Source: Haladaptatus sp. DJG-WS-42 (GTDB lineage: Archaea > Halobacteriota > Halobacteria > Halobacteriales > Halococcaceae). Taken from it: a stretch of 64,000 nucleotides of DNA. Of this stretch, positions 35,112 to 49,733 are shown one piece after another. The notes beneath the pieces were generated by a model. It was not told the origin of the DNA. It saw only the letters and a program-made list of their open reading frames with translations, and made no database searches. Made by a program: the position numbers and the translations under genes. Each line of letters starts with the position of its first letter. Position 1 is the stretch's first letter. The stretch covers positions 1-64,000 of the forward strand of contig NZ_CP147243.1 of assembly GCF_037198285.1 (NCBI RefSeq). Direction: 5' to 3'.

Positions 35112-35543
35112 GTGACCGCTCCCGACGCCGTGCTCATCTACGACGGCGAGTGTCCGTACTGCTCGATGGCCGCGCTTGCGCTCAAGCGCCTCGACACCGT
35201 CGTCGCCATCTCGTGGTACGACGACGCTTCCCAGCAGTTTCTCGAGGCCCAATTCGGCACGACGCCGTTTGCGATGGTGCTCGTAGACCAACAAGCGCGA
35301 CGGGTGTACGCAGGCAAAGCCGCAGCAAAAGAACTTGCCTCGCGAGCGGGGATGCCGAAACTCGCGGGGACCCTCGTCCGTGACAATTACGAAACAATCG
35401 CCGACCTCGTTGGCCGCGCGAGCGGTCGGGGACGCGACCCGGACGACTATCACGAACAGTATATGTTGGCTGCAAAAGCGAGCAACCTGTTTACCGCGCT
35501 TGCCGCGGCCGCCGCAGAACGCCCCGCAGATGTGACCGCTTAG
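35112..35543 (+). CDS. DCC1-like thiol-disulfide oxidoreductase family protein (DUF393)
   Basis: A 143-residue thioredoxin-like protein of the DCC family, named for its Asp-x-x-Cys-x-x-Cys start: here YDGECPYC with Cys14 and Cys17. The rest fits the family (LKRLDTVVAISWYDDASQQFLEAQFG, then PFAMVLVDQQARRVYAG). The GTG at 35112 is the probable start since the first strand (AVLIYDG) follows closely; an in-frame GTG at 35106 is also possible, and the ORF is open to 35073. The 3' end overlaps the convergent DUF4330-like gene by 4 bases. Confidence 0.82.
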   Translation: MTAPDAVLIYDGECPYCSMAALALKRLDTVVAISWYDDASQQFLEAQFGTTPFAMVLVDQQARRVYAGKAAAKELASRAGMPKLAGTLVRDNYETIADLVGRASGRGRDPDDYHEQYMLAAKASNLFTALAAAAAERPADVTA

Positions 35544-36046
35544 GCAAAGCGGATGACCGTTGGCTTCACCACAACATCTCCGAAGTCGAGGGTAACCCTC
35601 TTTCCGACGTAGATGCGCTCGCCGTTGTAGTAGCGCAACTCGTCTTTCATCGTGAGCGTGGTTTCGACCGTCAACTCAGCCGTGACGGTTTCGTTTGTCT
35701 CTGAAATGATATCGATGTCCTCGACTTCCACGAGCGAGTCGGTGGCGTTGACCGGCCCTTCTTCTATCGGTTCGAGCAGATATTTCGGGACGCTTTCGAG
35801 CCGGTAGACGACGCTCACGTTCTCGGTCGGTGGCGGTGCCGTCGTGTTGTTCGTCTGATTTTGTGGCGTTGCTGTTGGCGTTGGCGTCGGTGTGGCGGTG
35901 GTGTTGTTCGCGGCGGGTTCTGCAGCGTCGTCGCCCAGCACGAACGCGCCACCCGCGCCGACGACCGCAATCACGAGCAAGATAACGAATGCGTCGATGA
36001 TATTCACGAGACCGAACAGGTTCCCGTCCGAATCGAGAAGTGGCAT
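35540..36046 (-). CDS. DUF4330 family single-span membrane protein
   Basis: A 168-residue protein with a short cytoplasmic start (MPLLDSDGNLFGLVNIID), one membrane helix (AFVILLVIAVVGAGGAFVL, about 19-37), a Thr/Pro/Asn-rich linker (about 40-72) and an external beta-rich domain with VVYRLESVPKYLLEPIEEG and a closing VVVKPTVIRFA. The linker contains several N-x-S/T sequons, so it may be N-glycosylated by the AglB encoded 1.5 kb away. The domain family occurs in bacteria and archaea with no assigned function. Confidence 0.8.
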   Translation of the reverse strand: MPLLDSDGNLFGLVNIIDAFVILLVIAVVGAGGAFVLGDDAAEPAANNTTATPTPTPTATPQNQTNNTTAPPPTENVSVVYRLESVPKYLLEPIEEGPVNATDSLVEVEDIDIISETNETVTAELTVETTLTMKDELRYYNGERIYVGKRVTLDFGDVVVKPTVIRFA

Positions 36047-36131: not shown

Positions 36132-37085
36132 TTAGGCGTATTCGAGGTCGTCGGTGTACCAGTCGAGCGCCAACACGGCCGCCCCGCCGACGATGGCGAT
36201 AAGCACGACCGTGCCAATCGAGAGCGCCGACTCGAACGTGCCGTTTGCGAGCACCCGTTCGGCCGGGAGGCGAAGCGCGCCGACCATCAAACTCACGAGG
36301 AACGTGAGCGTCGCGGCGCGGTAGTGGGTGAGCGCCCACCGGATGACGTGCGCGATGGTCAACAGGCCAACGACCGCGCCCACGCCGAACACGACGACGG
36401 TCGTGGCAGGTTCGATGACGGCAGCTGTTGCACCGCCGCGGACGACGACGAGCAGCGCGTCGATGAACCGGCGGAGGGTCCCGAGCATGAACTCATATTG
36501 GCCCATGAGCAACAGCAAGAACGACCCCGAGATGCCGGGGAGAATCATCGCAGTGATGGCGACGGCCCCGGCGACGAACGCGAATGGGAGCGTGTTCGGC
36601 AGGCCGCCACTGCTCGATGCGCCCGAGATGAGAAACGCGAACACAAAGCCGACGACGGCGACGGCAAGGCGCGCGGGTGTGTTCACGTTGACGTGGTTGT
36701 AGAGCACGATGGCCGAGGCGGCAATCAGCCCGAAGAAGAAGGCGAACGTGAACGCAGGGTACTCGACGAGCGCGGTTTCGACGATGCGCGAGAGCGTGAT
36801 GAGCGCCGTTAGAATGCCCGCACCGAGCGCGGCGAGAAAGACGACGTCCATGCGAAGCAGGTCGTCACGGAACGCTGTGCGGCCCTCTGCGGTGTGGAGC
36901 CGGAAGACGTTCGCAATCGCCGCAGCGTCGAGTTCGGTGATGGCGCTGATGAGTCGCTCGTAAATTCCGGTGATGAGCGCAATCGTGCCGCCCGAAACGC
37001 CGGGAACGGTGTCTGCAGCACCCATAAAAAACCCTTTCAAGTAGATTGAAAACAGCTCCCCACCGGGAATCCGAGAGTCACTCAT
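36132..37085 (-). CDS. DUF368 polyprenyl-phosphate translocase-like membrane protein
   Basis: An integral membrane protein of 317 residues with about eight to nine helices and the family's signature early segment LKGFFMGAADTVPGVSGGTIALITGIYERL (residues about 16-45), repeated in weaker form as MILPGISGSFLLLLMGQYEFML in the second half. Bacterial DUF368 proteins have recently been shown to flip undecaprenyl phosphate back across the membrane. Here the start codon shares one base with the aglB stop (TAATG), so the two are translated together; recycling of dolichyl phosphate released by AglB is the natural inference. Confidence 0.88.
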   Translation of the reverse strand: MSDSRIPGGELFSIYLKGFFMGAADTVPGVSGGTIALITGIYERLISAITELDAAAIANVFRLHTAEGRTAFRDDLLRMDVVFLAALGAGILTALITLSRIVETALVEYPAFTFAFFFGLIAASAIVLYNHVNVNTPARLAVAVVGFVFAFLISGASSSGGLPNTLPFAFVAGAVAITAMILPGISGSFLLLLMGQYEFMLGTLRRFIDALLVVVRGGATAAVIEPATTVVVFGVGAVVGLLTIAHVIRWALTHYRAATLTFLVSLMVGALRLPAERVLANGTFESALSIGTVVLIAIVGGAAVLALDWYTDDLEYA

Positions 37086-40000
37086 TAGGCAACTCGTGGG
37101 AGAGCCGCAGGTATAGTGGCTACGGCCGGGGCGTCAACCGCCTGCCACGAGAGCGCGGCGGGCGGCGTCAGCGATGCCGAGGTGTTGGAGTCGTTCGTGG
37201 TGTTCGTGCCGTTCGGCGCGTCCGTGCCGTTCGGTGCGGTTGTGTTAGTCGAGTTCGTCGCGTTGCCGTCGTCCGACCCGTTCTGTGCGCCTTCGGGGAT
37301 GTCAACGGTCTCTTCAGAGAGTGTGACCGAGACGGCCGACGAATCCTCACCGAGGACTTGGCCTTCGGTCACGTTCGCCGAACCCTGCCACTGCGTGCCG
37401 GTCAGGTTGTCGTCGCGTTCGAGCGGCGACGTGAACGTGTACGGGCCGGTCGCGCGAACGCTCACGTTCGTGTAGCCTTCATCGAGGCCGTACTCCTCGT
37501 AGCCCGTCGACGAGTACGGCAGGGTCATCGTGAACTCGCCATTCTCGTCGGTTTGAGTCTGCTGGGTGTAGGTGAACGTCGAGTTCGACGTTTCCATCCG
37601 CATCTCGACAGCGGCCGTGATGGTCGTGTTCGCAGGACCGGTGCCGGAGACGGTCGCACCCGGAACCTTCTCGAACGTCTTGACCCACGCCGGAGGCGTG
37701 TTGAACAGCGCGTTCGTCGAAAGTCCGCCCTGACCGAGCAGCTGGGCGCGCGTGAAGAACGCCTGCTGGAACGATGGCGACGAGAGCGCAGACGTGTTCG
37801 AAATCTTCACGAGCCGGTAGTGCTGGAGTGCGGGAACGCGTTCGCTTGGGTACTTGCCGATGCCACCGATTTGCGAGGTGGCGTCGTTGTCGACGTACTC
37901 ACGCGCTTCGTCCATCGTGTCGAACCGCTTGACTGCCGAGGCGTTTTGCCCGCTTGGCAGTGCCGGGAACGTCACCGTGCCACGGTTGGTCTGTACCGAA
38001 CTCGTGTCCCAGTCGGAGACGACTGGCTCGACTTCGATTGAGCTGCCGTGGTGGTAGTAGAGCCGTGTCCGCATGCTCTCGTAGTAGCGCTGGGACTGCA
38101 CGGTGTAGACGAGTTGCGTCCCCTGCTGGTTGAACACGGGCGTGATGATGTCCCGCGAGGTCAGGTTCTCGCGGTCGTAGAACACCGTCGGCGCGGAGAA
38201 CTTGTTGGAGCTTGGGTCTGCGAGTTTCCAGTCGATCATGACGTAGCGCGTCTCTTCGCCCTCTGGGCTCACGAGCTGTTCGTTCGCTTCCGTCTCGTTG
38301 GTCGAGAGCAGGAAGTTCGCGGCTTCGGTTGCGCTCTGCTGGAACGGGTTGGCGGCAGGGATGCGCTCGCCTTTGACGGTGATGAAGTGGCCGTAGTCCC
38401 ACCACGACATCACGCCGTAGGAGCCCTCTGGATACTCGAAGTTGTCCGTCTGTCCGTAGGTGCCGTAGAGGTCCATCTGGTTCTGTGCGCCACCGTAGGT
38501 GCCTTCTTTCGGCGTCTCGTTTGCGAGCCAGTCGAGACTGTCGTCCCACTGGGTGACTTCGCCCGGCTGGGAGACCTGCCCGGCGTAGGAGATGGCGTTC
38601 GTCCCGCGCAGCGCGAGCGGGCCGGTGACGACGAGCAAGATGGCGACGACGGTGAGCACCTGATAGAGTTCGATGTCCCGCACCGAGCGAATCGCCTTCT
38701 CGGGGCTGACGTAGCGGAGGATTCCGCCCGCGAGGAAGGCGTTGAGCGCGACAATAGCGAGAATGAGGTAGTAGTTAAAGCGCACCTGCGTGAACGCGGC
38801 GGCCGTCATGAACACGGCCCACGTCAGGACGAACAGGTACTCAGCGCGCGACTTGCCCGCGTAGAAGTACTGGACGAGCATGATGGCCGCGCCGACGACT
38901 GCCGTGTAGAACGTCAGCCCGTAGGAGAAGGAGAGGTAGCTCTGTGCTTGTGAGAGTTGGAGGGGTTGGGCCTCGCCAACGGTTTGAGCGGTGGCGCTCG
39001 ACCCGAAGCCAGCCACCCGGGAGAACTGCGAGACGAAGAAGTTGAACACGTCCGGCACGGTGACCATCAAGAGAAGCGAAACGACCGCGATGGAGCCGAC
39101 GATGACGCCAGGGAACGCGAGACGTGGGTACTCAGTCTCGTCGAGTTTCCGCGCAAGGAACGCGAGGAAAACACAGCCACCCGCAACCGCGAAAGCAAGG
39201 AGTGGCTGGATGAGCGTAAACTGGGTTGGGCTGAGTGCGAAGGAATCGAACGAGAGGAGCGTGAGTATACCTGTGACGCCCATCATCACCGCACCCGTGA
39301 TGGCGAGGTGTTCGGGGCTCTCGCCGCGCACGTAGACGATACTGAGTGCAAGCGCGAAGAAGACGCCGAGGATACCAACGAGGAAGACACCCGGCGGCCA
39401 CGTCCAGATGTACAGCGAGACGGCGACGCCAGCGAGCGCGGCCCACCCGACGGGCGTTCTGAGGGCGTCCCAGTCGCGTTCTTGGAACTGTTCGTACACC
39501 GGTTTCTCGCGCTCTGCGACGGAGAGCGCGACCATCACCGCGAGGACGGCAATCGACTGGAACAGCGCCTCTGCAACGTGGTGGTCCGAGAAGCCAACGA
39601 GGCTGCGGCGGAGGAGCTCACTCGGCGCGAGTGCGAGAATGAGCACGGCGATAACGCCGCCAAAGCGGCCGCCGAGGCGCTTGCCAATGAAGTACGCTGG
39701 AATCGCCACGAGCGTCCCGAACACCGCGGGGGCGAACAGGAGCGTCATCCCAATCGTGTGCTGGTCTGGGCTGCCGAGGCCGACGATGAGTGCGACGGTG
39801 GCCACGAGCTGGTCGTACAGTGTCCCGAACTGACCGACACTCGTACCGACCGGGAAGTGCGTCCACGGGTCAAAGGGCATGGTCGACGGCCAGTTTTGGA
39901 CGGTGTAACTCACCTGTCGGAAGTGGTACCATGCGTCGTTTCCTGAGAAGAAGACGTCGCCATTGATGACGAAATTTTTCCAGCCCTGAACTCGGGTGTA

Positions 40001-40117
40001 CAGCATCACGCCGAGGAGGGCAACGAGGAGCGGAATGTGATACCACTCCTCGATGAGGTCGGCCACCGACCCGGAACGACGGGTCTGTGCCGACGGCTGT
40101 TTATTGCGTTTGCTCAT
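37085..40117 (-). CDS. aglB: Dolichyl-(phospho)oligosaccharide protein glycosyltransferase AglB
   Basis: The archaeal oligosaccharyltransferase (STT3), moving a lipid-linked glycan onto Asn of N-x-S/T in exported proteins. It has 1010 residues. The membrane part (about 25-520) holds the first external loop FSGNDAWYHFRQVSYT with the metal-binding Asp and the SDHHVAEALF segment. The soluble domain begins with the catalytic-site motif W572-W-D-Y-G-H577. The C-terminal third is beta-rich and ends in an Asn/Thr/Gly linker (near 960) before a last hydrophobic stretch. It is the first gene of a minus-strand pair with DUF368; the glycosyltransferase cluster diverges from the same intergenic region (109 bases). 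Confidence 0.95.
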   Translation of the reverse strand: MSKRNKQPSAQTRRSGSVADLIEEWYHIPLLVALLGVMLYTRVQGWKNFVINGDVFFSGNDAWYHFRQVSYTVQNWPSTMPFDPWTHFPVGTSVGQFGTLYDQLVATVALIVGLGSPDQHTIGMTLLFAPAVFGTLVAIPAYFIGKRLGGRFGGVIAVLILALAPSELLRRSLVGFSDHHVAEALFQSIAVLAVMVALSVAEREKPVYEQFQERDWDALRTPVGWAALAGVAVSLYIWTWPPGVFLVGILGVFFALALSIVYVRGESPEHLAITGAVMMGVTGILTLLSFDSFALSPTQFTLIQPLLAFAVAGGCVFLAFLARKLDETEYPRLAFPGVIVGSIAVVSLLLMVTVPDVFNFFVSQFSRVAGFGSSATAQTVGEAQPLQLSQAQSYLSFSYGLTFYTAVVGAAIMLVQYFYAGKSRAEYLFVLTWAVFMTAAAFTQVRFNYYLILAIVALNAFLAGGILRYVSPEKAIRSVRDIELYQVLTVVAILLVVTGPLALRGTNAISYAGQVSQPGEVTQWDDSLDWLANETPKEGTYGGAQNQMDLYGTYGQTDNFEYPEGSYGVMSWWDYGHFITVKGERIPAANPFQQSATEAANFLLSTNETEANEQLVSPEGEETRYVMIDWKLADPSSNKFSAPTVFYDRENLTSRDIITPVFNQQGTQLVYTVQSQRYYESMRTRLYYHHGSSIEVEPVVSDWDTSSVQTNRGTVTFPALPSGQNASAVKRFDTMDEAREYVDNDATSQIGGIGKYPSERVPALQHYRLVKISNTSALSSPSFQQAFFTRAQLLGQGGLSTNALFNTPPAWVKTFEKVPGATVSGTGPANTTITAAVEMRMETSNSTFTYTQQTQTDENGEFTMTLPYSSTGYEEYGLDEGYTNVSVRATGPYTFTSPLERDDNLTGTQWQGSANVTEGQVLGEDSSAVSVTLSEETVDIPEGAQNGSDDGNATNSTNTTAPNGTDAPNGTNTTNDSNTSASLTPPAALSWQAVDAPAVATIPAALPRVA

Positions 40118-40226: not shown

Positions 40227-41144
40227 ATGCGGGTCTCCGTCGTCCTCTGTACGTATTCACTCGACCTCTATGACGCCTTCGAGGAAGCAGCAGAGAGCAT
40301 CCTCGCCCAGACGCATCCGAACCACGAACTCATCATCGTGGTCGATGGCACCCCCGAGGTGTACGAGCGCGTCCTCGAAGACTACGGCGCGCGCGACGAC
40401 GTACGCATCCACCTGAACAGCGAGAATCGCGGTCTGCTCGCGAGCCGAAACACGGGCGCAGAACTCGCAGACGGTGATGTCGTTGCGTTCATCGACGACG
40501 ACGCGGTCGCAGACCCAGACTGGCTCGCAGAACTCGTCTCGGTATACGAAGACCACGACGCACTCGCCGCGGGCGGACGCATGACTCCCGAGTGGGTCGC
40601 GGGCAAACCCACGTTTCTCCCCGCCGAATTTTACTGGCTCATCGGCGTCACCCACCGCGGCTTCGCAGACGGCCCCGGCGAGGTGCGAAACACCTTCGGC
40701 TCGAACCTCTCGTTCAAACGCGACGTGTTCTCGGAACTCGGCGGCTTCGACACCGCCATTGGCGGGCGTAAAGGCGACAAGAATCTCCAAGGCGGCGAGA
40801 CGGAACTCTGTGCCCGCCTGCGCCAGCGGTACGACTCTGGCGTCTACTACACCCCCGACGCGCGCGTGGCGCACAAGGTGTTTGCCTACCGAACCGACCC
40901 GGAGTGGCTGGTTCGCCGGGCGTTTTGGCAGGGCTATTCGAAGCGCGCGATGGAAGTGTTGGTTCCTGAGTCAAGTGGCGAGGAGTCCGATTTCCTCGGG
41001 AAACTGCTCACCGAGTTCGCGCCAGAGCGGGCGAAGCGGCTCGTGTTTCACCCGTCGCTTTCCGGGCTGTTGCAGTTGGTGATGCTAGTCGTGTTAACTG
41101 GTACAGTGGGACTTGGGTACGTGTACGGGATGACGAAGTGGTAG
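40227..41144 (+). CDS. GT2 glycosyltransferase, AglG-like
   Basis: A 305-residue family 2 glycosyltransferase resembling glucosyl-dolichyl-phosphate glucuronosyltransferases (AglG) of the haloarchaeal S-layer pathway. GT-A core: VSVVLCTYSLDLYDAFEEA, HELIIVVDGTPEV, NRGLLASRNTGAELADGDVVAFIDDDAV with the DDD metal site at about residue 91-93, FGSNLSFKRDVF and a distal GGETELCARL acid/base motif. A single C-terminal hydrophobic helix (LLQLVMLVVLTGTVGLGYV) should anchor it to the membrane. It diverges from aglB, supporting a role in the same pathway. The exact sugar is not determinable. Confidence 0.88.
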   Translation: MRVSVVLCTYSLDLYDAFEEAAESILAQTHPNHELIIVVDGTPEVYERVLEDYGARDDVRIHLNSENRGLLASRNTGAELADGDVVAFIDDDAVADPDWLAELVSVYEDHDALAAGGRMTPEWVAGKPTFLPAEFYWLIGVTHRGFADGPGEVRNTFGSNLSFKRDVFSELGGFDTAIGGRKGDKNLQGGETELCARLRQRYDSGVYYTPDARVAHKVFAYRTDPEWLVRRAFWQGYSKRAMEVLVPESSGEESDFLGKLLTEFAPERAKRLVFHPSLSGLLQLVMLVVLTGTVGLGYVYGMTKW

Positions 41145-41184
41145 TGTCGATAGTCTTTTGGGTGCAACTTCAGTTTTGACGAGT

Positions 41185-42324
41185 ATGGGAGACGAGCGAC
41201 TCGGAACAATCGAGGACCTCACGGTGGCAATCGCCCATTGGCACGTCAATTCGTGGGGCGGTGCCGAGTACCTCGTCACGAAACTCGCGGAGGTAGTGGG
41301 GGCACAAACTGTGTTCACGCTCGGCGACCCAACCCCGGACACCACGAACCCCTATGGTGACGTCTCGTTTACCGATTTGCTTTCAGGACTCGATTGGACG
41401 CCTCTCCGACGTCTCCAGGGACGAGTTGGTAGAGTCTTCGAGTACGCGCTCTGGGAAGACGTTGATTGGCGTGATTACGGCGACCCAGACGTGCTTATCA
41501 CATCAGGAGCGACCACTCGCGCGGTCATCACACCGGACGACACCTTACATGTGAACTACTGTCACTCCCCTCCGCGGTGGTTCTACGACCTCTATCACGA
41601 CAGAAAAGGAACACTGAGTGGGAAAGTCGCTCGCCCTCTCGTCCGCTATCTTCGGACGCGAGACATGACGATCGACCCACGGGTGGATCATTACTTCGCA
41701 AATAGCCCAATTATCCAGCGTCGCCTCTGGAAGTACTACAAGCGAGATGCGGAAGTACTCTACCCACCGCTTGATTTGAGTAAATATCGTAACGATGGTG
41801 ACGAAGAATTCTACCTCCACCTGGGACGGCTTGATGTCGAAAAAGGCGTTCCCGAAATCGTCGCCGCATTCGAACGGTTAGAAGAAACACTTGTGTTGGC
41901 TGGCGGTAAGGGTGATGTTTCAGACGAGATGGTGGAACGCATCGAACGTGCACCGAATATCGACTATCGAGGATTTGTCTCTGAGGAAGTGAAGTATAAC
42001 TTGCTGGCGACGTGTCGAGGGGTAGTCTTCAATGGCCGAAACGAAGATTTCGGTATCGTTCCTATCGAGGCTAATGCGAGCGGGAAGCCGTGTCTGGTTC
42101 CGAACGAGGGGTTCCCGGAAATGTTCATTGAAGACGGAGTAAACGGACTCATTCACGATGGCTCAGCTACAGGGATTATGAAAGCAATTGGCAAATACTC
42201 AAGTAGTTCTTTCGAGAAGGATTTACGAACTCGCGTACTTGACATGTCGGTACCAGAGTTCAAATCAAAACTCACTCGAGACGTGTCTGAAAAAATAATT
42301 TCTCATATTGGAATTCGAAGATGA
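41185..42324 (+). CDS. GT4 family glycosyltransferase
   Basis: A 379-residue GT-B enzyme. The N-terminal Rossmann domain contains HWHVNSWGGAEYLVTKLAE and LHVNYCHSPPRWFYDLY. The C-terminal domain has the GT4 pattern EFYLHLGRLDVEKGVPEIVAAFE, the YRGFVSEEVKYNLLATCRG block and NEDFGIVPIEANASGKPC with the E-x7-E donor-binding motif. ATG 41185 is used; the TTG upstream at 41158 adds nine unlikely residues. From about 41750 onward the codons turn noticeably AT-richer, marking the left edge of the variable glycan region. Overlaps the next gene by 4 bases. Confidence 0.88.
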   Translation: MGDERLGTIEDLTVAIAHWHVNSWGGAEYLVTKLAEVVGAQTVFTLGDPTPDTTNPYGDVSFTDLLSGLDWTPLRRLQGRVGRVFEYALWEDVDWRDYGDPDVLITSGATTRAVITPDDTLHVNYCHSPPRWFYDLYHDRKGTLSGKVARPLVRYLRTRDMTIDPRVDHYFANSPIIQRRLWKYYKRDAEVLYPPLDLSKYRNDGDEEFYLHLGRLDVEKGVPEIVAAFERLEETLVLAGGKGDVSDEMVERIERAPNIDYRGFVSEEVKYNLLATCRGVVFNGRNEDFGIVPIEANASGKPCLVPNEGFPEMFIEDGVNGLIHDGSATGIMKAIGKYSSSSFEKDLRTRVLDMSVPEFKSKLTRDVSEKIISHIGIRR

Positions 42325-43457
42325 ATATCGGTATTTACAACCCTCGTGCCGGGTTCGCGACAAGCGGAGGTACTGAAACATTCATTCGAGAATTGTTAAA
42401 ACGCACATCTCAAAGACATACGGTTCAACTAATTACTGGAGCAGGACCGTTATCCGAGGAGTTACAGCAACTCGACATTGAGATAATTCAGATTCCGTTC
42501 GTGAAGAAGGAAGACACCCTCAATCGGTATCTGTCAACCTATACGCCATTGTTACCTGCAGAAGTTGAATCATTGACTATGTTTTGGTCAATAAAAAGAC
42601 GAGGCTTACTTGATTCATTAAGTCAGAAAGTAGACGTCTTTTCAACCCATTATTACTTGGACGACTTGCTAATCAGTAATTCATCACCTCTCCCGTCCGT
42701 ATTCCGTTTCCCCGGTGTCAAATCAAAATCCATCCGATGGAAATTGCTCGTCAACCACTCTAAGAGTCGCTTTGTGGCAAATAGCAGCAGCACAGAACGC
42801 AGAATAAAGAAGTGGTTCAATATTGAAGTTGATGATGTCGTTTATGCAGGGGTCGATTGTAATCTCTTTTCTCCAACAGTACCTCCCGCATTTAGTACAG
42901 ATCACCAATCGATTCTATATGTCGGCCGGTTGGATGAAGGAAAGGGGCTTTTTGAGTTACTTGCTGCACACGCCAATTTAGAACCAATCCCAGAATTGTA
43001 TATTATTGGTGGTGGTAGATTAGAGAAGTCTCTAAAAGAAAAATCGAAATCATTAGAGACTCAGGATAATGTTAAGTTCATCGGTGAAATAAACCACGAG
43101 AACTTGCCAGGGTATTATACTGCAGCAGATATCTTTTGCCTCCCATCTCACCACGAAAGCCTTGGTCTCGTAAATTTGGAATCAATGGCTTGTGGAACCC
43201 CTGTTGTGAGTACTCAAATTGATGCGATAGAGGAGTATCTTACAAATGGAGAGAACGGCTTCTTGATCGAACCCGGGAATACTGAAGAACTTACGACTAC
43301 CTTACAACGATTGATTTCTAATCCGTCTGAAAGAGAGTCAATTGGTCTAGCTGGCCGAGAAACAGCGAAGCGCTTTGACTGGAGTAAGCAAACTTCGAGA
43401 ATGATAACCAATTATGAACGAGCCATCTGTTTCAATAATCGTCCCAACGCTCAATAA
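42321..43457 (+). CDS. GT4 family glycosyltransferase, AT-rich
   Basis: A 378-residue GT-B enzyme. The N-terminus NPRAGFATSGGTETFIRELL and the donor site HESLGLVNLESMACGTPVV (E-x7-E) are clear, with SILYVGRLDEGKGLFELLAAH opening the C-terminal domain. Base and codon use differ sharply from the rest of the window (frequent AAT, TTA, AGA, ATA codons), as expected of a recently acquired glycan-biosynthesis gene. It is coupled by a 4-base overlap at its start, and by a 44-base overlap at its end, to its neighbours. Donor and acceptor unknown. Confidence 0.88.
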   Translation: MNIGIYNPRAGFATSGGTETFIRELLKRTSQRHTVQLITGAGPLSEELQQLDIEIIQIPFVKKEDTLNRYLSTYTPLLPAEVESLTMFWSIKRRGLLDSLSQKVDVFSTHYYLDDLLISNSSPLPSVFRFPGVKSKSIRWKLLVNHSKSRFVANSSSTERRIKKWFNIEVDDVVYAGVDCNLFSPTVPPAFSTDHQSILYVGRLDEGKGLFELLAAHANLEPIPELYIIGGGRLEKSLKEKSKSLETQDNVKFIGEINHENLPGYYTAADIFCLPSHHESLGLVNLESMACGTPVVSTQIDAIEEYLTNGENGFLIEPGNTEELTTTLQRLISNPSERESIGLAGRETAKRFDWSKQTSRMITNYERAICFNNRPNAQ

Positions 43458-43956
43458 CGACCCACTCACTCTCCAATCCGTTCCTTCGAACGTTGAGGTT
43501 TGTGTCGTAACTGAGGGTAACCGAGCAGAAGCACGAAATATCGGCGCTTCTCGTACTAACGGCAAGATACTCGTCTTTTGTGATGACGATATTCGTTTCA
43601 GTGAGAATTTTTTCTGGGAGCAGGTGCTAAATTTAGAAGAACGAACAATATGTGGTCTACTCGACTTCGATTTCAATCTCTTGCTCACTCGATTTTTTGT
43701 TGTTCACCGAGATGCGTTTGAAAAACTGGGAGGCTTCGATGAGCGATTAAATCACATGGAAGACACCGAATTCTGTTTAAACGCTCTGACAAATGGATAC
43801 AATCTACAATCGATCCCCAGAGACTCTGTCTACCATAAGGAACATGAAAGCCGGGGTCAGGGCCGGTGGACGACACTGAAGAGTATACTATACTTATCTG
43901 CCAGATATCCAAAGTTTGCACTACGTCTATTCAAGGGCATAATAAAGGAAACTTAA
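43414..43956 (+). CDS. Short GT2-like glycosyltransferase
   Basis: A 180-residue protein, about 100 residues shorter than normal GT2 enzymes. It keeps VSIIVPTLNNDPLTL at the N-terminus, EARNIGASRTNGKILVFCDDDIRF with the DDD metal site near residue 58, and a C-terminal FDERLNHMEDTEFCLNAL acid/base motif. The middle segment between the first strand and the DDD motif is compressed, so this may be a minimal or partly degenerate enzyme. It overlaps the preceding gene by 44 bases in another frame and shares its AT-rich composition. Confidence 0.75.
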   Translation: MNEPSVSIIVPTLNNDPLTLQSVPSNVEVCVVTEGNRAEARNIGASRTNGKILVFCDDDIRFSENFFWEQVLNLEERTICGLLDFDFNLLLTRFFVVHRDAFEKLGGFDERLNHMEDTEFCLNALTNGYNLQSIPRDSVYHKEHESRGQGRWTTLKSILYLSARYPKFALRLFKGIIKET

Positions 43957-43964
43957 TCAAGTCA

Positions 43965-45494
43965 ATGTCTAGAGACGACAACATCGTACGAACACTCTTT
44001 TCAGGAGGTAGTTTAATCGTATTCGGTCTTGCCTTCGAACTCGGACTCTCCTTTGTTGCAAAATTGTTTATCGCACGGGTTCTCGGACCCACCGACTATG
44101 GGGGAATTTCAATCGGAATTACGATATTGACTATGCTTTCGACAGCGGTACTTATTGGTCTCAACACTGGTGTAGCGAGATATCTCCCCAGATCCAAAGA
44201 TGAATCGTTTCGTAGAGGGGTTCTCATCTCTGCATACCGAATTGTTATCCCATTTGCTATTCTCGTCTCACTATTGATAGTCATATTAGCTCCGTGGCTG
44301 GCTAATGACGTCTTTCATAACCCCTCGATTACTGACATCCTCCGTCTTTTTGCCGCGATGATTCCACTAGGTGCAATTATGAAATTGTCAGTTGGTACGG
44401 CGCAGGGAATGAAACAAACGCTGCCAAAAGTTTACATTCAACACATCACGCTCCCGCTCGTGAGATTTACAGGAATAATCGTCGTCATATGGCTCGGGTA
44501 TGGGGCAATCGGTGTTGCTGGAGCATACGCCCTCGCCTATCTCCTTGCTTCAGTAATCGGCGTTTACTACGTAATCAGCCACACGCCGTTGCTTTCCTCT
44601 GTTCCACCAGTGAGAATGGATAGAGAATTGCTCTCTTTTTCAGCTCCGCTCCTTATCACCACGACGATGGTTCTTATTTTTTCTGACATCGACACATTCA
44701 TGCTAGGTGCGATAGCCTCCACCAGCGATGTAGGCATCTACAACGTGGTGTATCCAGTTGCACAGTTGCTAACCGTGGCTACAGCATCATTTGGTTTTAT
44801 TTTCATGCCAGTTGTTTCCGAGCTACACGTAGACGGTAGGGTCACAGAAATGCGACGTCTCTACCAATTGGTCGTGAAATGGGTGTCAATACTGACATTC
44901 CCCTTGTTCACACTCGTTGTCCTCTTTCCTGAGATGACTATATCGAAAACCTTCGGCCCCGAGTACGCCTCCGGAGCATTGGCACTTTCGATACTATCCA
45001 TTGGCTTCTTTACACACGTCGTGGCGGGACCAAACGGTAATACACTTACTTCAATTGGTGAAACGCGCCTCATCATGTACGATAATATACTCGTCGCGGG
45101 CGTCAACCTCGGGTTAAACTTCCTGCTTATCCCCGAATACACGTTCCTCGGGGCGGCAGTGGCAACGGCGGTCGCGTACGTCCTCTTGAATCTACTCTAC
45201 TCGATACAATTGTACACCCGAACTGGCATCCAACCCCTCTCTCAATCACTCGTCAAACCAGGTGTCATTGCGATCACCGTCGCGGGTGTGCTCTATCTCA
45301 TCGGGACTGCGATATTCCCAATCACAGTGGCGTTTCTCTTTGGGTACCTCTTAGTATTCACCGCTGTGTACGCGTTTGCTGTCATCCGGTTCGGTATCGA
45401 AGAGGAAGAGGTGATGTTGGTACTCAGCTTCGAAGAGCGATTTGGTGTCAACCTCGGCCCAGTTAAACAAATTGCCCAACGATTCATTGAGTGA
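43965..45494 (+). CDS. Polysaccharide/dolichol-glycan flippase (AglR/Wzx-like, MOP superfamily)
   Basis: A 509-residue membrane protein with about fourteen helices, of the RfbX/Wzx type that moves lipid-linked glycans to the outer face. The N-terminal SGGSLIVFGLAFELGLSFVAKLFIARVLGP-type segment (residues 13-42), VARYLPRSKDE after helix 3, and DIDTFMLGAIASTSDVGIYNVVYP near the middle are typical. ATG 43965 is chosen, being the first start right before the membrane domain; the open frame before it overlaps the neighbouring gene. It is AT-rich in its first two-thirds and returns to normal codon use toward its end, marking the right edge of the island. Confidence 0.88.
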   Translation: MSRDDNIVRTLFSGGSLIVFGLAFELGLSFVAKLFIARVLGPTDYGGISIGITILTMLSTAVLIGLNTGVARYLPRSKDESFRRGVLISAYRIVIPFAILVSLLIVILAPWLANDVFHNPSITDILRLFAAMIPLGAIMKLSVGTAQGMKQTLPKVYIQHITLPLVRFTGIIVVIWLGYGAIGVAGAYALAYLLASVIGVYYVISHTPLLSSVPPVRMDRELLSFSAPLLITTTMVLIFSDIDTFMLGAIASTSDVGIYNVVYPVAQLLTVATASFGFIFMPVVSELHVDGRVTEMRRLYQLVVKWVSILTFPLFTLVVLFPEMTISKTFGPEYASGALALSILSIGFFTHVVAGPNGNTLTSIGETRLIMYDNILVAGVNLGLNFLLIPEYTFLGAAVATAVAYVLLNLLYSIQLYTRTGIQPLSQSLVKPGVIAITVAGVLYLIGTAIFPITVAFLFGYLLVFTAVYAFAVIRFGIEEEEVMLVLSFEERFGVNLGPVKQIAQRFIE

Positions 45495-45543
45495 GAAGTC
45501 AGTAGGAGAAGGCTTTTGCAGGCCCGGGAACGACCAGAAAGCA

Positions 45544-46536
45544 ATGGAACCCCGCGACGACGTGTGTGTACTCATTCCAACGCTCAATGAAGCCGCGACC
45601 ATCGGGTCGGTCGTAGACGGCTTTCACGAGCAGGGATTGACGAACGTCCTCGTCGTGGACGGCCACTCCTCCGATGGCACGAGAGCGGTCGCGGCCGACC
45701 ACGGTGCGCGGGTTATCACGCAGTCTGGAAGCGGGAAAGGGCAGGCGGTTCGCGAGGCGATTCGGAAGATCACTGCGCCGTACATTCTGATGGTTGACGG
45801 CGACGGTACCTACCGGCCGGAAGACGCAGAAACGATGCTCGAACCGTTGTTGTGGGGCGATGCACAGCACGTCATCGGGGACCGGTTTGCGCACATGGAG
45901 CCGGATGCGATGTCGCGGGTGAACCAGACCGGCAATCGCGTCATCAATGGGGCATTTTCGTTCATTCACGGACGCGACCTCAGAGACATTCTGAGTGGGT
46001 ATCGGGCGTTCACCCGCGAGTCGGTTGAGGCGCTTGGGCTCTACGCAGACGGGTTCGGGATAGAGACAGAACTCGCCGTCGAGTGTGTCAAACACGGGGT
46101 GACGACGGCCGTTGTGGATATTCACTACGGCTCGCGTCCAGCGGCTTCGGACACGAACCTCCACCCGCTTCGTGATGGTGGCATCATCCTGATGACGCTG
46201 TACAAGCTTGCGAAAACCAACAACCCGCTCTTTTACTTCGGGAGCGTGGCGGGCGTGAGCACGATAATTGGCGTTATCATTGGGCTGTATGTGGGTGTCG
46301 AATACGTCACGCTCGGCATCTCTCACGAGGCGATGGCAGTCGTGTCTGCCTTTTTCATCCTCTTTGGGATGCAACTGCTGATGTTTGGCGTGCTTTCGGA
46401 CCTTATTGTGACGCTCAACCGCGAGCAGACGAGACGGCTCGAAGAGATTGCCCGACAGCGACGTGAACCCGCAGCCAAATCTTCGGAGCCACGGCGCGTC
46501 GAGTCAGCGTCACCCGGCCCCGACGAACGGGCGTAA
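45544..46536 (+). CDS. aglJ: S-layer glycoprotein N-glycosyltransferase AglJ
   Basis: Adds the first hexose to dolichyl phosphate in the N-glycan pathway. The protein is 330 residues: a GT2/DPM1-like domain (DVCVLIPTLNEAATIGSVV, VLVVDGHSSDGT, ILMVDGDGTYRPEDAE with the DxD site, DILSGYRAF) and two C-terminal membrane helices (about 235-255 and 265-290), ending in a charged tail. Placement beside aglB and a flippase is the standard haloarchaeal layout. ATG 45544 is preferred; the frame is open upstream into the flippase tail. It marks the conserved right border of the cluster. Confidence 0.92.
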   Translation: MEPRDDVCVLIPTLNEAATIGSVVDGFHEQGLTNVLVVDGHSSDGTRAVAADHGARVITQSGSGKGQAVREAIRKITAPYILMVDGDGTYRPEDAETMLEPLLWGDAQHVIGDRFAHMEPDAMSRVNQTGNRVINGAFSFIHGRDLRDILSGYRAFTRESVEALGLYADGFGIETELAVECVKHGVTTAVVDIHYGSRPAASDTNLHPLRDGGIILMTLYKLAKTNNPLFYFGSVAGVSTIIGVIIGLYVGVEYVTLGISHEAMAVVSAFFILFGMQLLMFGVLSDLIVTLNREQTRRLEEIARQRREPAAKSSEPRRVESASPGPDERA

Positions 46537-47582: not shown

Positions 47583-49646
47583 TTAAAACTCAGCCGCGAT
47601 CTCCGAACTCCAAGTGAACGTGCCATCGAAGATGACTGGCGCTTCTTCAAGCGAGAGGAACGCAATGAGTTCCTCGCGCCCAACACTAAACGTTTTCAGA
47701 TGGCCCGAACTCAGGAACTGGTCTTCGTTGTCCCCGATGTGTGGCCGAAAGAGTGTGCCAATCCCCATGTTGCTGGTTGGATAGGTGCGAATACTCACGT
47801 CGTAGTCGTCACCCCGCGACCGCACGTCACACAGATACGGTGTCAGGCTCTCTGCGTGCGCGATATCGACGTTACCGTCACCGACGACGAGGTACTTACT
47901 CCCGATGATACTCTGGTCTGAGGCGATGGTGAGCGCCGCACGGAGCGGAAAGCCACGGTTAAGCAAGCGCGCCATTGCACTCCCGATTCTGAACGCCCCG
48001 CTGTCGATAACGTCGTCTAAGGTCACAACGCCGCCAACACTGCCCGCTTCGATGAGGTGCATTCCTTGGGTGTACGACCGGCACGCATTGAGCAAGAAGG
48101 CGTCTACACCGACCGAATCAAGCGTCTGCACGTCGAGTTTGCCGTCGGTACACTGGAAGCCGTCGTCGTCGATGTGGCCAATGTAGTGGACAAAGTCCAC
48201 ATCCGATTCGAGGATGGCCGCGAGTTCGGAAACACTCAGATCTGAGGTGAGGGTGACGTTGAACGGAAGCGCCTCGCGCGAACCGTACACGTCGGCCGCC
48301 GCGTGGTGCTCGTCGAGCATCGCCTCGTCGTTACAGACCACCGTGATGTCAACATCCTGTCCCGTCACATCGCGGCGGAGTCGATTGCGGTACGCAGCCA
48401 CCGTTGCCTTCGTGGCTCCGAGCGGCGCGTCGTCACCGACCCACGCCTGCTCGAGGGAGTTCGCAGGCTCTGGCTGGACGACTGAAATCGGTGACCGCTC
48501 GCCGTCCGTCGTCGCCCGCATAAACTCGTCGCGCAAAAATTCGTCAACCGCGGCGGTTTGGCCCTCCGGTTGGGGTACCGTACTTGCCTTTGGCGTTCGA
48601 ATGACGGCAAGGTCGTTTACGAGAAACGGAAGGATTTCGACGTTTTCGGGCGTCGGTGAGATGTGCGTCGTCAGCTTCCACTCCGGCAGGTGGGGTTCGA
48701 TGTGGCGAAACGGTACTTCGAGGTCGGCTTTGAGTTGCTCGCCGACCGACTGACTGTACCGGTTTTCGAACGAGAACGGAATGCTGTCTTCGACCGCGCT
48801 GCGCTCGTGAAGCGACACCTGATAGTAGCCTTCAGTCCGGGTCAAACAGTCTAAAAAGAACGTCTGTTTGAGCAGACGCTCGACTTCTCGTTCAAACGTT
48901 TCGCCGGTACCAAGCGGGTGGGTGTAGCCGGTTTCGGTGACGATGCGCGCCGCTGGGCCCGGTTCAACGTTGGCACCGAGATAGTAGGCGAGAGGGGCAA
49001 TAACGTAGAGCGTCCCCAGTTCCGGTGGCAGTTCGATAGTCACCCCCGTCTCCGGTGGGCTGAGTGCGTCTGGAATGTCGAGTTCATCGCCGAGTTCAAT
49101 CATCGGCGGGTGGCCTCGAAGCGTCGGGTACGACCGTTCACAAGAGGTCGTCTTGAGCGCAGAACTGAGGGCGGATATGGCCGCCATCATATCGTGTGGG
49201 TCTTCGGTCGTCGTGATAGTAGTCGCTGGGTTGTCGTGGTACGACCGGGCTCCAACGAGCACCTCCGTTTCGGCGTCGAATTCAAAGGTCATCTCGGTTG
49301 CACCGGCGGTGACCGAAAACGGCGCTTTGACCCGAATGTAGAGTTTGATTGGCCCGTTGAGTTCGATGCTGTACGTTCCCTTGGGAAGTTCGTGAAACGC
49401 AAAGTGCTCTGCGTGCACGACCATGTCGCCGTCATCGGTACGGATGTAGGTCGCGACGACTTGCGGAAGAACGAGTTCTGAAGTGGTAATCGCAACGGCG
49501 GTGTCGACTGGAAACGTAAACCGGTCTGTGTCCACGGGACGGGGCGTTACCGCACTGTCGCTGGTGAGGGCACACTGTCTGCGTTCAATGGGGTCTGCAA
49601 TCTGTACTCCATGAGCAGTAGCGCACGCCTCAATCGTGACGTGCAT
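47583..49646 (-). CDS. CHAT-type caspase-like protease protein of haloarchaea
   Basis: A 687-residue soluble protein. The C-terminal third is a CHAT-like domain: strand VDFVHYIGHID with His491, then VDAFLLNACRSYTQG with Cys522 as the predicted catalytic dyad, GSVGGVVTLDDVIDSGAFRIG, and LVVGDGNVDIA. The N-terminal 400 residues are beta-rich with no known domain, and may sense a ligand or partner. The start at 49646 is supported by a GGGAGGT ribosome-binding site (49656-49662) 9 bases upstream and a TATA element that places the transcript start near 49700; the ATG at 49706 would be too close. CHAT proteases often act in defence or death programmes, but haloarchaeal ones are uncharacterised. Confidence 0.82.
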   Translation of the reverse strand: MHVTIEACATAHGVQIADPIERRQCALTSDSAVTPRPVDTDRFTFPVDTAVAITTSELVLPQVVATYIRTDDGDMVVHAEHFAFHELPKGTYSIELNGPIKLYIRVKAPFSVTAGATEMTFEFDAETEVLVGARSYHDNPATTITTTEDPHDMMAAISALSSALKTTSCERSYPTLRGHPPMIELGDELDIPDALSPPETGVTIELPPELGTLYVIAPLAYYLGANVEPGPAARIVTETGYTHPLGTGETFEREVERLLKQTFFLDCLTRTEGYYQVSLHERSAVEDSIPFSFENRYSQSVGEQLKADLEVPFRHIEPHLPEWKLTTHISPTPENVEILPFLVNDLAVIRTPKASTVPQPEGQTAAVDEFLRDEFMRATTDGERSPISVVQPEPANSLEQAWVGDDAPLGATKATVAAYRNRLRRDVTGQDVDITVVCNDEAMLDEHHAAADVYGSREALPFNVTLTSDLSVSELAAILESDVDFVHYIGHIDDDGFQCTDGKLDVQTLDSVGVDAFLLNACRSYTQGMHLIEAGSVGGVVTLDDVIDSGAFRIGSAMARLLNRGFPLRAALTIASDQSIIGSKYLVVGDGNVDIAHAESLTPYLCDVRSRGDDYDVSIRTYPTSNMGIGTLFRPHIGDNEDQFLSSGHLKTFSVGREELIAFLSLEEAPVIFDGTFTWSSEIAAEF

Positions 49647-49655
49647 CAGGGACAG

Positions 49656-49733
49656 ACCTCCCGAATCGAATTCCGGTACCCGTGGACGGCAGACATACGT
49701 ATACACCCGATACAGAATGATTTATTAAAAAAG
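49656..49733 (-). promoter_or_regulatory. Promoter and ribosome-binding site of the CHAT protein gene
   Basis: On the minus strand, a long A/T box (CTTTTTTAATAAA, 49733-49721) is followed about 26 bases on by the expected transcript start near 49700. A GGGAGGT sequence (49662-49656), complementary to the 16S rRNA end, precedes the ATG at 49646 by 9 bases. This gives a leader of roughly 50 bases, unlike the leaderless genes elsewhere in the window. Confidence 0.6.

Follow-up and report, generated by a model that had tools for sequence, protein, structure and literature searches.

A class-wide aglB–DUF368 gene pair in haloarchaea, and DUF368 as a candidate for returning dolichyl phosphate after N-glycosylation

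We analysed a stretch of 64,000 nucleotides from the haloarchaeon Haladaptatus sp. DJG-WS-42 (contig NZ_CP147243.1, positions 1 to 64,000; referred to here as the window), in which a gene for a membrane protein of the DUF368 family comes immediately after that for the archaeal oligosaccharyltransferase AglB. The aglB–DUF368 arrangement is a class-wide gene pair, with a reach beyond what could be seen in the single sequence from which a role in lipid carrier recycling had been proposed. The best explanation of the pair, although unproven, is that the DUF368 protein acts as a PopT-like flippase which returns the dolichyl monophosphate released by AglB, in haloarchaea only; we regard this as reasonably probable. 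The transporter family itself is a known one, and the pathway indicated for it here is new.

Both genes lie on the minus strand. The aglB gene (37085..40117) encodes a protein of 1010 amino acids of the STT3 family, and the DUF368 gene (36132..37085) a protein of 317 amino acids. The one-base overlap described in the sequence-only reading is indeed present: the aglB stop codon TAA runs from 37087 to 37085 and the DUF368 start codon ATG from 37085 to 37083, giving TAATG (37083..37087, minus strand) with base 37085 common to the two genes. The identity of AglB is clear from its match to TIGR04154 (archaeo_STT3; 896 bits against a cut-off of 450) and to PF02516 (STT3; 91.7 bits against 24.5), together with matches to AglB_core-like and AglB_L1 domains (PF22627 and PF18079). 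Its translation also contains the WWDYG motif of archaeal oligosaccharyltransferases.

The second protein, a likely dolichyl-phosphate return flippase, matches PF04018 well above the Pfam gathering threshold (229.3 bits against 26, E 6.9e-68), with residues 21–272 aligned to positions 1–226 of the 246 in the profile. The current Pfam name for this family is VCA0040-like, undecaprenyl phosphate translocase-like. The protein carries twin PG(V/I)SG motifs, one in each half (P28–G32 and P183–G187), which are invariant except at the V/I position in a six-row alignment; the eight residues P28, G29, S31, G32, P183, G184, S186 and G187 are kept in 98 of 98 haloarchaeal DUF368 rows (58 linked to aglB and 40 unlinked). 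In our reading, the twin motif is a probable marker of the DUF368 family. An AlphaFold model (6 sequences; mean pLDDT 81.4, pTM 0.75) is entirely helical, with 15 helices and helix breaks at both motifs. No solved relative was found by sequence, there being no PDB match up to E 1. The model had no Foldseek match to solved folds at E ≤ 0.001, the BacA entries 6fmt and 5oon appearing only at E 0.77 and 1.1. The best VIA match, a ZIP transporter (Z 7.2, root-mean-square deviation 4.6 over 176 residues), is within the unspecific range of the tool.

The frequency of the pair was determined in a sample of 242 genomes, drawn evenly, which by content represents the class Halobacteria, and in which PF04018 and the AglB core domain were located. 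DUF368 was present in 239 of the 242 genomes and the AglB core in 238. Five genomes (G021, G117, G186, G205 and G225) had no match for one or both genes and were dropped, leaving 237 with both coordinates. The two genes were no more than 6 kb apart, and are called linked here, in 170 of the 237 genomes; DUF368 followed aglB on the same strand in every one of the 170, and the domain matches were less than 1.5 kb apart in 161 of these. Of the 73 genera, 52 have the pair (47 in every genome, 5 in some) and 21 never do; it occurs in 9 of 10 families. A lack of association with aglB in other genomes, which the sequence-only reading had named as refuting it, was thus not observed. Random placement would yield ∼0.2 linked cases as compared with the 170 observed, although related genomes are not independent draws. 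Some genomes hold two DUF368 copies and in three of them (G005, G025 and G044) one copy is linked and the other unlinked.

The one-base overlap seen in the window is one among several spacings. These were taken from one linked representative per genus (n = 52), using the start codon nearest the aglB stop, a choice which favours short gaps. The genes overlap in 12 of the 52 representatives, by 1 base in 8 and by 4 bases in 4, and DUF368 starts 0–10 nucleotides (nt) after the aglB stop in 17, 11–60 nt after it in 9, 61–200 nt after it in 10 and more than 1 kb after it in 4. In 29 of the 52, therefore, the genes overlap or are separated by no more than 10 nt, the start lying anywhere from 4 nt inside to 10 nt past the aglB stop. 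No AglB–DUF368 fusion was seen, as the aglB stop precedes DUF368 in all 57 linked loci which were read. In several members of family f5 (genera g23, g50 and g61) the two genes are separated by an open reading frame (ORF) on the other strand which, by eye, resembles UDP-glucose 6-dehydrogenase; the loci of f5 genomes with such a gene between the pair, usually on the strand opposite to it, are L040, L068, L076 and L086–L090. In G014 (genus g9, the one of its two linked genomes which was read) a UDP-glucose dehydrogenase-like gene also lies between aglB and DUF368, there on the same strand. The Haloferax volcanii aglM gene, which encodes a UDP-glucose dehydrogenase, is part of the aglB cluster (PMC5867893).

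To what extent the pair reflects descent can be judged from a quick DUF368 tree with a midpoint root, comprising 58 linked rows (52 genera and extra loci with wide gaps) and 40 copies from unlinked genomes. The linked state tracks families on this tree, with 7 label changes over the 98 rows as compared with 31.2 in shuffles, which indicates that the pair is partly an inherited neighbourhood and that most genomes inherit one event. The flanks behave differently. Among genus representatives, which were picked because they are linked, only 133 of 1063 between-family pairs (12.5%) had even one homologous ORF in common within ∼3.4 kb downstream of DUF368, and the largest other ORF family, excluding aglB, DUF368 and frames overlapping them, reached 22 of 58 linked loci. 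Around a pair that persists, the neighbouring genes turn over.

Linkage has been lost by two routes. In one, a separate unlinked DUF368 clade stands in place of the linked gene; this accounts for 29 of the 40 unlinked rows, mostly from families f4 and f3. In the other, seen in g9, DUF368 of the same lineage is located elsewhere. No residue separates linked from unlinked copies at 90% in both groups (58 and 40 rows), from which it follows that the unlinked copies probably do the same job as the linked ones. Among the unlinked loci L094–L133, an ORF resembling a thermosome subunit lies at most ∼1 kb upstream of DUF368 in 8 loci from 6 genera of the f4/f3 clade.

The likely activity of the family is known from bacteria. 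The sequence-only reading had stated that bacterial DUF368 proteins return undecaprenyl phosphate, and this is in print: they are reported to have a role in translocating undecaprenyl phosphate (Sit et al. 2022, PMC9876793), and without DedA and DUF368 proteins undecaprenyl phosphate builds up in the outer leaflet (2025 review, PMC12826051). The H. volcanii DUF368 protein HVO_RS12060 at least partially complements a Vibrio cholerae mutant lacking VCA0040, and dolichol phosphate is named, in the context of DedA, as a further substrate class which is possibly concerned (PMC9876793). VCA0040 and PopT share their Pfam family, PF04018, with the window protein, and one haloarchaeal member of it is partly functional in V. 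cholerae. A bacterial DUF368 protein, L158 from Thalassobacillus, is 30% identical to the window protein, the motifs PGVSGGT and LPGxSG being common to both. The bacterial proteins differ in that their carrier is undecaprenyl phosphate (C55-P) rather than archaeal dolichyl phosphate, whereas the window gene lies behind an oligosaccharyltransferase gene and its product does not reach the cut-offs of the NCBIfam equivalogs. Return of polyprenyl phosphate has also been shown for a second family, DedA/UptA (PF09335; PMC12826051), which is distinct from DUF368 in Pfam.

On the archaeal side, H. volcanii glycans are assembled on dolichol phosphate and transferred by AglB outside the cell, AglR and Agl15 being proposed for the outward transfer (PMC3871713). 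In Halobacterium salinarum the carrier is likewise dolichol phosphate (PMC4335974); the same paper describes translocation before AglB as proceeding by an unknown mechanism. Deletion of aglB in Halorubrum lacusprofundi reduced S-layer glycosylation (PMC10384203). Given a dolichol phosphate carrier in the Haloferax and Halobacterium pathways, AglB should release dolichyl phosphate directly. Hence, where release of dolichyl phosphate or pyrophosphate had been suggested from the sequence, the monophosphate stands and the pyrophosphate is not needed (PMC3871713, PMC4335974).

These observations can be combined in a simple scheme, in which aglB and DUF368 would form a bicistronic unit serving one lipid-carrier cycle. 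AglB, at the outer membrane face, would transfer the glycan from dolichyl phosphate to Asn residues of S-layer and other exported proteins, so that free dolichyl monophosphate would remain in the outer leaflet. From there the DUF368 protein would move dolichyl phosphate back to the inner leaflet, where the glycosyltransferases encoded by neighbouring genes would reload it, and a MOP-type flippase would export the loaded carrier in the direction opposite to that of DUF368. Co-translation would match the amount of the recycler to that of AglB, the maker of its substrate. The AglB release and MOP export legs would be as indicated by published work in relatives, and the proposed return leg draws on family membership, on the ability of a haloarchaeal homologue to give partial rescue, and on the gene pair itself. 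The substrate of DUF368 in the cell, the direction of flipping and the co-translation with aglB are what we infer from these lines of evidence. It is also conceivable, although doubtful and in our view quite unlikely, that AglB and DUF368 form one haloarchaeal membrane complex, a built-in carrier-return module in which dolichyl phosphate is passed directly from transferase to flippase.

A number of points weigh against dolichyl-phosphate return by DUF368. Linkage is not obligatory, as 67 of the 237 genomes have both genes in another arrangement. This is one of the points on which the interpretation first drawn from the window, supported in part, needs correction. In 37 of the 67 the genes share a contig but are separated by at least 67 kb, and in 30 they are on different contigs, a few of these (at least G161 and perhaps G051) at a contig edge, so that some may be linked after all. 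The Haloferax-like genus g9, which we infer to be Haloferax, keeps the pair in just 2 of the 15 genomes with both matches (G014 and G492), one of the 15, G491, having a broken AglB match. Unlinked DUF368 copies lie among apparent housekeeping genes, for example the thermosome-like ORF, and G021 (1.9 Mb in 120 contigs) is the only genome of the class sample with an aglB match but without a DUF368 match, for which an assembly gap is possible. The window protein scores 202 and 94.7 bits, against 400, with the NCBIfam polyprenyl-phosphate transporter equivalogs NF052564 and NF052563, and it is for this reason filed as a PF04018 member rather than equated with VCA0040 or PopT. The Haladaptatus genome also has three DedA genes, which could do the same job as DUF368. 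Outside the class, all 37 genomes with DUF368 in the phylum sample described below have STT3, and in none of them is DUF368 within 6 kb of it. In the literature searched there was no DUF368 experiment with dolichyl phosphate and none linking DUF368 to glycosylation; the search yielded no paper treating DUF368 together with aglB, and further searching on archaeal DUF368 was also empty. On the other side of the balance, the three DedA proteins of Haladaptatus found a match at none of 71 aglB loci, and the presence of a MOP-type flippase in the window cluster provides a candidate for the outward step of the cycle.

There are three alternatives to dolichyl-phosphate return. DUF368 might be a general polyprenyl-phosphate flippase, serving exopolysaccharide, O-glycans or mannose-donor recycling, or a factor in salt or pH tolerance, with an old operon kept for its expression level and not dedicated to N-glycosylation. 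This would fit the presence of DUF368 in nearly all haloarchaea, linked or not, and the fact that the 67 genomes manage with unlinked copies in which the invariant residues are unchanged; it would also fit the tie of DUF368 to fitness under salt and alkaline conditions in V. cholerae and its apparent enrichment in Halobacteria (PMC9876793). However, it gives no reason for a general gene to remain behind aglB in 52 genera while the neighbours are reshuffled, and we consider it rather unlikely.

Far less probable still is that the pair is simply inherited synteny with no functional significance. Whilst the tracking of families by the linked set is in keeping with this, the linked loci show high flank turnover, the spacing is tight in most genera, and the pair outlasts class-wide divergence as its neighbours change. 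We think it only marginally less improbable that DUF368 moves the loaded carrier outward, as the missing lipid-linked-oligosaccharide flippase which feeds AglB. Its placement beside the enzyme consuming the flipped substrate is consistent with this, as is the unexplained translocation step before AglB (PMC4335974), but the known DUF368 proteins act on free undecaprenyl phosphate (PMC9876793, PMC12826051), and the outward step has other candidates both in the window cluster, with its MOP-type gene, and in H. volcanii, with AglR and Agl15. The latter two are proposed N-glycosylation flippases for the outward passage of sugar-loaded dolichyl phosphate, in the direction opposite to that suggested for DUF368 (PMC3871713). 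The return of dolichyl phosphate by DUF368 is the explanation that we prefer.

The wider claim, that DUF368 is the general archaeal recycling flippase, fails. In a phylum sample of 294 genomes, ∼53 belong to this class (52 with a DUF368 match) by handle and kinship, the split being our own count with 185 genomes without a match unlisted. DUF368 was found in 89 of the 294 and, outside the class, in 37 of ∼241, leaving ∼204 without it. Similarly, Methanocaldococcus jannaschii, Sulfolobus acidocaldarius and Methanosarcina acetivorans have STT3 and DedA but lack DUF368. As it is missing from archaea with STT3, DUF368 cannot be a general archaeal recycler, and DedA is a candidate for the recycler elsewhere in archaea. 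If its assembly has no gap, the haloarchaeal genome G021 is a natural test of whether DedA suffices alone. In four of the five f30 genomes, which are outside the class, DUF368 lies ∼13–15 kb from STT3 on the same strand. We rejected this proximity as a wider association, since a thermosome-like ORF and apparently unrelated genes intervene and DUF368 adjoins ORFs which by eye resemble uracil phosphoribosyltransferase and a permease. The thermosome-like ORF in these four genomes is several kb from DUF368.

Returning to the window, aglB and the divergent genes at 40227–46536 would, judged by their content, make up an N-glycosylation cluster. These genes, all on the plus strand, start with a family 2 glycosyltransferase (40227..41144; PF00535, E 3.9e-26), followed by two group 1 glycosyltransferases (41158..42324 and 42321..43457; both PF00534) and a short family 2 glycosyltransferase (43414..43956; PF00535). 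The MOP-type flippase is at 43866..45494 (PF01943, E 8.9e-28 on 43953–45491); AglR and Agl15 are of the MOP type. The last gene (45442..46536; PF00535 on 45538–46533) encodes a family 2 glycosyltransferase with a C-terminal membrane segment, its finer role probably being akin to that of a dolichyl-phosphate-sugar synthase. On the other side, 85 nt behind DUF368 and on the same minus strand, a DUF4330 gene (35540–36046; PF14221) is positioned as a possible third gene of the operon, but it is in no ORF cluster of at least 4 among the 58 linked loci, and no conserved third gene was therefore identified. Near the glycosylation cluster there is also an ORF of 707 amino acids (47583–49706, minus strand) with no Pfam match at E 0.01. 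An ORF of 691 amino acids near aglB in the unlinked genome G004 (L149, 1481–3556) resembles it by eye, as does an ORF family (cluster 20) found behind DUF368 in seven linked loci.

The class-wide pair provides a named candidate, with a predicted substrate, for the return of the spent N-glycosylation lipid carrier in archaea. That the DUF368 partner has gone unremarked may be explained by the best-studied genus, Haloferax, in which, if g9 is that genus, the pair is probably mostly split. The published Haloferax and Halorubrum clusters quoted here, which either lead from other agl genes as far as aglM or begin with aglB, may have added to this. If dolichyl-phosphate return by DUF368 is true, then DUF368 and DedA would both recycle polyprenyl phosphate in bacteria as well as archaea, and genetic work on the haloarchaeal case could start immediately.

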